From positions 1,426,001-1,490,000 of the forward strand of contig NZ_FOJA01000001.1 of NCBI RefSeq assembly GCF_900110535.1: a stretch of 64,000 nt of DNA, in the 5' to 3' direction. Under the pieces are notes generated by a model. That model was given only the letters and a program-made list of their open reading frames with translations. It searched no databases and was not told the DNA's origin. Below are positions 4,475 through 6,725 of the stretch, piece after piece (position 1 is the first letter of the stretch; each line of letters starts with the position of its first letter). Source of the stretch: Halobacterium jilantaiense. Lineage in GTDB: Archaea > Halobacteriota > Halobacteria > Halobacteriales > Halobacteriaceae. The position numbers were made by a program, and so were the translations under genes.

Positions 4475-5482
4475 TCAGAGCCCGAGCGCGTCGTTCGTGG
4501 TTGCGACCGACTCCTCGGCGTCCATCTCGCCCGTAATCGCCCGGACGGCGTCGACGTTCTCGGGGACGACGTCGGACTCCTGGTGGATGGCCTGGAAGCA
4601 GTAGAAATCACGGCCTACCGTGGTGACGGACTCGCCCCAGAGGCAGTTCTCCCAGAGGTCGCCCCGCGGCCGGCCCATGTCCTTGGCGTACTCCTTGAGG
4701 GGGCCTGTGCCCTTGATGCCGAGGTCCTTGTCGAGGACCATGATGCGGGACTGTCCCGCGAGGACATCCCGAACCTCGTCGGCGTCCGGTTCGCTTTCGA
4801 GGGTGACGTTCACGCTGTGCATGTGCATCAGCGTCGCCGGCACCTTCAGCCCGAGCGTGTCGATGTCGAGGTCGGGGAAGATTGTGTTCACGTCGGGGCC
4901 GTGGTGGCTCGGAATCGAGATGGGGTCGGGGAGGATGTCGTTGATGGGGCCCCGTCCCGTCTGTCCGGGGTCGCCGCCGCGCCGGACGAGCGTGGTTCGG
5001 ACCTTCTCGACGCCGTACTCCTCCTGGAGGGGCGCGAGCAGCCGGGAGAGCCCCGTCGTGTTGCAGGAGACGACGCGGACGTGGTCGGCACCCTCGGCCT
5101 CAGCGTAGTTCGAGCGGGCGTTGAACGAGACGTCGGCGACGTCGGCGTCCTCGCCGCCCTGGTAGATGGCGGGGGTGTCGTGTTCCTCGTAGAGCGCGCG
5201 GTTCTGCGCGCCGATGCCGGACGGCGTGGCGTCGACGACGACATCGCTCTCGGCGACGAGGTCGTCGACGAGGCCGGCGGTCTCGACGCCCGCCTCGCCG
5301 AACTGGTCGGCGCGGTCCTCGATTGCGGCGTAGAGGTCGAAGCCGCGTTCACGGGCCTGTTTCGCTTCGAAGTTCGGGCGGGTCTTCGCCACGCCCGCCA
5401 CCTCCATGTCGGGCTGGGCGTCGACGGCGTCCGCGACGCGCTTCCCGATGGTTCCGTAGCCGTTGATGCCGACGCGGAGCAT
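4475..5482 (-). CDS. gap: Type II (archaeal) glyceraldehyde-3-phosphate dehydrogenase
   Basis: A 335-residue archaeal type II GAPDH, interconverting glyceraldehyde 3-phosphate and 1,3-bisphosphoglycerate with NAD(P). It has the N-terminal Rossmann motif [12 protein letters not shown] and the active-site SCNTTG with catalytic Cys140; PSHHGPDVN and LMHMHSVNV are typical of the archaeal branch. ATG 5482 is chosen over an in-frame GTG two codons earlier because it gives the conserved [10 protein letters not shown] start and lies 26-34 nt after a TATA-like CGGTTATCC (minus strand, 5508-5516). A palindromic TrmB-like operator lies just upstream of that box, suggesting glucose-responsive control. 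In haloarchaea this class mainly serves gluconeogenesis. Confidence 0.96.
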
Positions 5483-5507
5483 ACACACGAGTGGTCCACG
5501 GACTACC

Positions 5508-5516
5508 GGATAACCG
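5508..5516 (-). promoter_or_regulatory. TATA-like box of gap
   Basis: The minus-strand sequence CGGTTATCC is centred about 30 nt upstream of the gap ATG at 5482. That is the spacing expected for a leaderless or nearly leaderless haloarchaeal transcript. Confidence 0.55.
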
Positions 5517-5535
5517 TTTCGAGGCGGCTCCGCGC

Positions 5536-5561
5536 GGATTTACCGGGTTTCGAGTAAATCC
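5536..5561. promoter_or_regulatory. Palindromic TrmB-like operator upstream of gap
   Basis: A perfect 8-bp inverted repeat, GGATTTAC (5536-5543) and GTAAATCC (5554-5561), with a 10-nt spacer. Its core reads TACC-N7-GAGTA (5541-5556 on the plus strand), one base from the TACT-N7/8-GAGTA motif known for the sugar-responsive regulator TrmB of Halobacterium salinarum. It lies upstream of the gap TATA box, the position expected for activation of gluconeogenic genes. The assignment to TrmB is an inference from motif and target. Confidence 0.6.
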
Positions 5562-5620: not shown

Positions 5621-5722
5621 ATGTCCGAGCGCACCCACGAGCGCGAGGACTGGCAGCTCCCGGAGAACGCCGAGACGCAGTTGGACTACTTCGAGGACGT
5701 CGAGGAGCCGTCGGACGTGTGA
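5621..5722 (+). CDS. Small acidic protein, 33 aa, unknown function
   Basis: An ATG-started 33-codon frame, too short for most gene finders. It begins MSERTHEREDW and ends EEPSDV, with Glu/Asp making up about a third of the residues, typical of haloarchaeal coding sequence. It reads away from gap and lies just upstream of the aminopeptidase on the same strand. A T-rich stretch (CACTTTCG) about 35 nt upstream could be its promoter. I recognise no family. It could also be a non-functional frame. Confidence 0.4.
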   Translation: MSERTHEREDWQLPENAETQLDYFEDVEEPSDV

Positions 5723-5780: not shown

Positions 5781-6725
5781 ATGAGCTTGCGCGACGCGGC
5801 GAAGACGGCGGTCGAACAGTGCCTGGGACTGGACGCCGACGAGGACTGCGTCGTCGTGACCGACGACGAGCGCCGAGACATCGGGGAGGCGCTCTACGAG
5901 GTCGCCAGCGAGGTCAGCGATTCGACGACCATCCTCCAGTACCCGCCGGGCGACCAGCACGGCGCGGAGCCGCCCGCACCGGTAGCGGCCGCGATGAAGG
6001 ACGCCGACGTGTTCCTCGCACCGACGACGAAGAGCCTGAGCCACACGCGCGCTCGCGGCGCAGCCAACGACGTCGGCGCTCGCGGTGCCACCCTCCCCGG
6101 CATCACCGAGGAAGTGTTCACGACCGGACTGGACGCCGACTACGAGACCATCGCCGAGCACTGCGAGGACGTGCTCGCGCAGGTCGCGGCCGCCGACGAG
6201 GTCCGCGTGACGACGCCCGCCGGCACCGACATCACGTTCGACGCGGGCGACCGCGACTGGCGCGACGACACCGGCATCGTCCACGACGACGGCGACTTCT
6301 CGAACCTTCCCGCGGGCGAAGTGTTCGTCTCCCCAGTGGACGCCAACGGCACGTACGTCGTCGACGGCACGATGATGCCCCACGGCAAACTCGGCGACGG
6401 TCAGGAGCTGCGCTTCGAGGTCGAGGACGGCTTCGTCACCGACATCTCCGACGACCAGATTCGCGAGCAGGTCGAGGCCGCCAGCGAGCAGGTCGGCGAG
6501 GACGCCTACAACCTCGCGGAACTCGGCATCGGGACGAACGTCGCCGTCACCGACCTCGTCGGCAGCGTGCTGCTCGACGAGAAGGCCGCCGGCACCGTCC
6601 ACATCGCAATCGGCGACGACGCCGGCATCGGCGGCGACACCGACGCCCCGCTCCACCTCGACGGCATCATCCGGGAGCCGACCGTCTACGCGGACGGCGA
6701 AGAAGTTGAGTTGCCGAGCCCGTAA
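5781..6725 (+). CDS. M29-like aminopeptidase
   Basis: A 314-residue protein resembling peptidase family M29 (thermophilic aminopeptidases AmpS/PepS) in its C-terminal half. Metal-site regions are recognisable at NLAELGIGTN, the block around GTVHIAIGDD and PLHLDGIIREP. Such enzymes remove N-terminal residues from peptides in the cytosol using two metal ions. It is shorter than bacterial M29 enzymes (about 400 aa); the N-terminal half is reduced. ATG 5781 follows a T/A-rich region (TTTTTCTCGAAAACGC) about 35-45 nt upstream. It reads divergently from gap. Confidence 0.8.
   Translation: MSLRDAAKTAVEQCLGLDADEDCVVVTDDERRDIGEALYEVASEVSDSTTILQYPPGDQHGAEPPAPVAAAMKDADVFLAPTTKSLSHTRARGAANDVGARGATLPGITEEVFTTGLDADYETIAEHCEDVLAQVAAADEVRVTTPAGTDITFDAGDRDWRDDTGIVHDDGDFSNLPAGEVFVSPVDANGTYVVDGTMMPHGKLGDGQELRFEVEDGFVTDISDDQIREQVEAASEQVGEDAYNLAELGIGTNVAVTDLVGSVLLDEKAAGTVHIAIGDDAGIGGDTDAPLHLDGIIREPTVYADGEEVELPSP

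Follow-up and report, generated by a model that had tools for sequence, protein, structure and literature searches.

A predicted TrmB operator upstream of BRE/TATA in the gapII promoter of Halobacterium jilantaiense

The haloarchaeal regulator TrmB recognises the motif TACT-N7-8-GAGTA, as stated in the available passages of PMC3794607. In Har. hispanica, according to the corresponding passages of PMC10817205, TrmB (HAH_1548) occupies in vivo, when glucose is absent, the region between gapII and an aminopeptidase gene (HAH_2729/HAH_2730), and it activates gapII, whose expression is down by 4.13 log2 in the trmB deletion. For two targets, fbp and gapII, the same passages describe evidence that agrees between Har. 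hispanica and H. salinarum, and they place TrmB motifs generally upstream of the initiation elements, with overlap of the BRE at repressed genes. A positional rule, by which binding upstream of BRE/TATA activates and binding downstream represses, is set out in the accessible text of PMC4158304 and also holds for the Thermococcales TrmBL1/Tgr proteins, which belong to the same family and recognise the TGM motif TATCAC-N5-GTGATA; their operator sequence and sugars differ from those of haloarchaeal TrmB.

The locus described here shares with H. salinarum TrmB (VNG1451C) an orthologous regulator, the orthologous target gapII, a closely similar core motif, and a site upstream of BRE/TATA, whereas its gap-proximal half reads CGGTA and its centre lies 28 bp from the BRE, compared with 20 bp in H. 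salinarum. As at gapII (HAH_2730) in the other organism, Har. hispanica, the site lies between gapII and an aminopeptidase gene (PMC10817205, in the passages at hand), to which the window (the whole 64,000-nucleotide stretch analysed) adds a small ORF between the two genes. Since the passages cited above already establish gapII as a TrmB target in Har. hispanica and H. salinarum, the locus very probably represents a further case of a known switch. The apparent additions are the narrow spacing, a co-loss within the genus, and the Halobacterium CGGTA half-site variant; in the main-text passages surveyed, neither an invariant distance between operator and BRE nor a joint loss in Halobacterium is described. 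The features of the locus are as follows.

4475–5482, minus strand: gapII, phosphorylating type II glyceraldehyde-3-phosphate dehydrogenase, 335 aa (NF003251, TIGR01546)
5508–5520, minus strand: BRE/TATA of gap, GAAACGGTTATCC (from sequence; the element recurs 35–43 bp ahead of the start codon in the majority of gapII promoters)
5536–5561, minus strand: predicted TrmB operator, GGATTTACTCGAAACCCGGTAAATCC on the gap strand (from sequence and conserved place in other gapII promoters)
5541–5556, minus strand: operator core TACTC-N6-CGGTA, 8/10 to TACTC-N6-GAGTA
5621–5722, plus strand: divergent small ORF, 33 aa, possibly sharing the operator (from ORF position)
5781–6725, plus strand: M29-type aminopeptidase, the next divergent gene (PF02073, 47.1 bits)

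The gapII protein scored above the cut-offs of both type II models (NF003251, 508.6 bits; TIGR01546, 429.5 bits), in keeping with the original prediction, which had proposed a type II GAPDH as a plausible TrmB target. It shares 92% identity with its counterpart in Halobacterium sp. TGN-42-S1 and 85% with the one in H. salinarum. Sequence inspection also bore out the predicted perfect inverted repeat, comprising GGATTTAC (5536–5543), a 10-bp spacer, and GTAAATCC (5554–5561). Within it, TACC-N7-GAGTA on the plus strand (5541–5556) was correctly described as one base from the TrmB motif, the mismatch being TACC for TACT. On the gap strand, the distal half TACTC is the better one and the gap-proximal half is degenerate (CGGTA for GAGTA); as a counterpoint to the assignment, this half differs by two bases from the motif in the literature. 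The order on that strand is GGATTTACTCGAAACCCGGTAAATCC (5561–5536), 15 bases, GAAACGGTTATCC (5520–5508), and then the ATG (5482–5480); CGGTTATCC occupies 5508–5516 (minus strand), with GAAA on its BRE (upstream) side reaching 5520. The operator centre lies 28 bp upstream of the BRE GAAA, so the predicted placement upstream of a TATA-like element holds and agrees with the TrmB logic in the published passages.

Perfect inverted repeats of 8 bp are in themselves nothing unusual in this GC-rich window: 106 occur with spacers of 0–20, where 50 dinucleotide shuffles average 83, and 6 have a spacer fixed at 10, where the shuffle mean is 3.9. When at least five A/T per arm are demanded, the operator repeat is the only one in the window (shuffle mean 0.14, maximum 2 in 50 shuffles). 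A whole-genome pattern search of the 2.95-Mb genome found this one perfect place and no second copy within two mismatches, while TACY-N7-GAGTA occurs at 11 places genome-wide, and about 0.24 would therefore be expected in 64 kb. The operator repeat is set apart from chance by the fact that other species keep it in the corresponding position.

One scan yielded 80 loci encoding gap relatives, mostly from haloarchaea, giving 81 upstream stretches together with the window. The core TACTC-N6-GAGTA was found at 8/10 or better in 38 of these gapII upstream stretches, compared with 3.25 per shuffled set. Alignment of 47 sites, chosen by a match of at least 7/10 (L080 was placed by hand; L043, L051, L068, and L070 were left out), gave the operator profile TTACTCG-N5-GAGT(T/A)AATT(T/C)C. 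Across these sites, the gap-proximal flank, (A)AATTTC or AAATCC, is kept in haloarchaea and the distal flank beyond TT is not. The original prediction of a repeat longer and more symmetric than the published core thus stands for the gap-proximal flank, whereas distal GGATT is conserved only inside Halobacterium. The distance from the operator centre to the BRE GAAA was 26–30 bp in 38 of 48 measurable promoters, 20–21 in four, 32–38 in five, and 48 in one. A helical-turn rule for this spacing was considered and is not claimed here, as the classes 20–21, 28–30, and 38 lie 8 and 10 bp apart. Several TrmB-carrying genomes have no operator at the usual gapII place (L031, L037, L041, L046, L064, and L051, the last having one at 48 bp), and the gapII promoters of these six may have been rewired.

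The original prediction depended on a TrmB gene, and profile searching found one strong, full-length orthologue in this genome (about 234 bits to PF11495). Its DNA-binding domain (PF01978, 73.9 bits) and effector domain (PF11495, 233.1 bits) both score above cut-off, and it is 83% identical to H. salinarum VNG1451C. Residues Y53, D54, G329, and E335 match Y61, D62, G337, and E343 of VNG1451C, the Y/D pair contacting DNA and the G/E pair sugar (PMC4158304, in the passages available); the correspondence is by residue number, with a uniform shift of 8 from the published positions, the VNG1451C sequence lying outside the alignment. The IPQPRVYDTVRSL stretch of the DNA-binding domain is identical in this TrmB, in that of TGN-42-S1, and in that of a Haloarcula, and the closest solved structure is Pyrococcus TrmB 3qph.

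TrmB was searched for over 48 of 50 selected genomes, and an orthologue, defined by a score above 380 bits, was present in 36, the next best match reaching 137; these 36 include one with an internal TGA and one whose match spans residues 3–307. Adding the genome studied here and nine further Halobacterium gave 44 genomes with TrmB and 14 without. With related genomes counted singly, an operator of at least 7/10 was found in 39/44 with TrmB and 2/14 without (Fisher 5e-7), and one of at least 8/10 in 28/44 and 0/14, respectively (Fisher 1.8e-5). The two TrmB-less genomes reaching 7/10 are those of L068 and L070, and five of the 44 TrmB-carrying genomes showed no match of at least 7/10 upstream of gapII. 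Because related rows are not independent, independent pairs were also counted on a tree: among five supported pairs, the operator goes with TrmB in two to three, never the opposite way, and is unchanged in the rest. After this kinship correction the association is unopposed and not significant, at the low power that five pairs afford.

Within Halobacterium (13 genomes, namely this one and 12 listed as the same genus), the operator was present in 11, at 28 bp from the BRE in three and at 20 bp in eight. It accompanies TrmB in 11/11 genomes and is absent in both genomes without TrmB, each of which is 99% complete. CGGTA forms the gap-proximal half in seven of the 11 operators and GAGT is kept in only one; GTAAATC is retained in 10/11 and distal GGATT in 6/11, and the longer palindrome is therefore partly a genus feature. 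Loci L206 and L208 (genomes G055 and G060), which belong to the two Halobacterium species in which TrmB orthologue and gap operator are both missing, have the stop of a different gene closely upstream of gap.

The original prediction had also proposed scanning the genome for sites before sugar and cofactor genes. A relaxed regulon pattern, TTTACTC-N6-GAGTAAA with up to three mismatches, occurs at 21 places, compared with six for the reversed pattern used as a control. Judged by ORF position and a reading of the translations, a sorting that was not blind, eight of the 21 sites stand ahead of genes for sugar or triose-phosphate metabolism: gap, pgk, an aldolase-FBPase pair, a gluconate/galactonate-type dehydratase, glucose dehydrogenase, a GapN-like aldehyde dehydrogenase, glycerol-1-phosphate dehydrogenase, and a sugar-binding protein whose gene is divergent from fumarase. 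The other 13 showed no link to sugar genes by eye, some lying inside genes, and no central carbon gene was found downstream of the six reversed-pattern sites by the same reading, again not blind. The egsA product exceeded its NCBIfam cut-off (530 against 413) and FBPase its Pfam cut-off, while pgk, aldolase, dehydratase, GapN-like aldehyde dehydrogenase, sugar-binding protein, and glucose dehydrogenase fell below curated cut-offs, three of these proteins having been scored as 400-aa parts. The aldolase scored slightly lower with its own model than with a related synthase model, and the glucose dehydrogenase is what we take the protein to be, with no model behind the name. The aldolase stop overlaps the FBPase ATG, and the pair shares one TrmB-like site 69 bp upstream (L162, L227; G000:C1:749365-750696).

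The distance from site centre to start codon is 66 for gap, 69 (TTG) or 84 (ATG) for fba, and 74 for pgk; it is 19 for the dehydratase, 40 for glucose dehydrogenase, 41 for the aldehyde dehydrogenase, and 18 for egsA. Under the published rule we infer that gap, fba, and pgk would be activated and the latter four repressed. The same pattern in H. salinarum occurs at 19 places, compared with eight for the reversed one, and the 15 sites examined include the gap site and sites before pgk, the aldehyde dehydrogenase, the aldolase (recognised in a shifted frame), and pyruvate kinase, a published TrmB target. The sequence TTGCTTCGGTCGCGAGTAAA is identical in the two genomes and lies before a gene (L193, L179). 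Of the simple motifs, TACY-N8-GAGTA has at least 34 matches; several among these and the TACY-N7-GAGTA matches look coding. A profile of 43 operators run against three genomes gave 1, 2, and 0 matches, missing the gap site and recovering only the pgk site in the genome studied here, where 150 of 787 first-look candidates were scored; such a search fails because the motif is too short.

Taken together, the site, its conservation, its near-fixed distance to BRE/TATA, a TrmB with the published contact residues, the tracking, and the sites at other sugar genes make it very probable that TrmB uses 5536–5561 as its operator in the gapII promoter. A chance inverted repeat without function, for which the abundance of perfect 8-bp repeats in the window might speak, is already disfavoured and most improbable, as sequence and place are kept in distant species, the site tracks TrmB, and the pattern is enriched over its reversed form. 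Use of the site by another regulator, such as a TrmB-family paralogue or an unrelated factor, is also improbable, if slightly less so. Many haloarchaea have several TrmB-like proteins, and this genome itself shows two further, weaker PF11495 matches of 26 and 23 bits, of which one contains an internal TGA; however, 12 genomes with only weak TrmB-like matches (below 62 bits) carry no operator of at least 8/10, the operator is absent in Halobacterium exactly where the orthologue is missing, and a motif close to that described for TrmB lies at a gene already known as its target.

It is possible, though rather doubtful, that the operator serves both gapII and the divergent side with the small ORF and aminopeptidase, which is compatible with its being the gapII operator. 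The site lies between divergent genes, as does the Har. hispanica peak between aminopeptidase and gapII, and two TrmB-induced Har. hispanica genes encode proteins of less than 50 aa (PMC10817205, passages available). Conversely, those passages give the RNA change of -4.13 at that peak once and assign it to gapII, and a relative of the small ORF, which has no Pfam or NCBIfam match, is recognisable at the same place in only one of the 80 gap loci, that of Halobacterium sp. TGN-42-S1, at 88% identity.

If 5536–5561 acts as the TrmB operator of gapII, then without glucose a TrmB dimer would sit on the TACTC and CGGTA half-sites, upstream of the BRE by roughly the length of a TFB footprint, and would assist in loading TFB/TBP or RNA polymerase at the promoter; gapII would then be made and gluconeogenesis would run. 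Sugar on the C-terminal domain would release TrmB and leave gapII at a basal level, and at catabolic promoters of the same genome, where the site is near the start codon, binding would block. We tentatively suggest, as a conjecture that may well not hold, that TrmB touches TFB/TBP directly and the operator is therefore held at set BRE distances (28–30, 20–21, and about 38); that Halobacterium remodelled GAGTA to CGGTA but kept the outer A/T arms, a change that would tune affinity or orientation in a lineage not burning sugar; and that trmB loss was followed by site loss within one genus.

On sequence evidence alone, the comparison confirms an old and widespread link between TrmB and gapII in haloarchaea, and it supplies an operator profile and a spacing rule open to testing by mutation. 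Natural knock-outs of this switch are at hand in the two Halobacterium species that have neither the regulator nor the operator.
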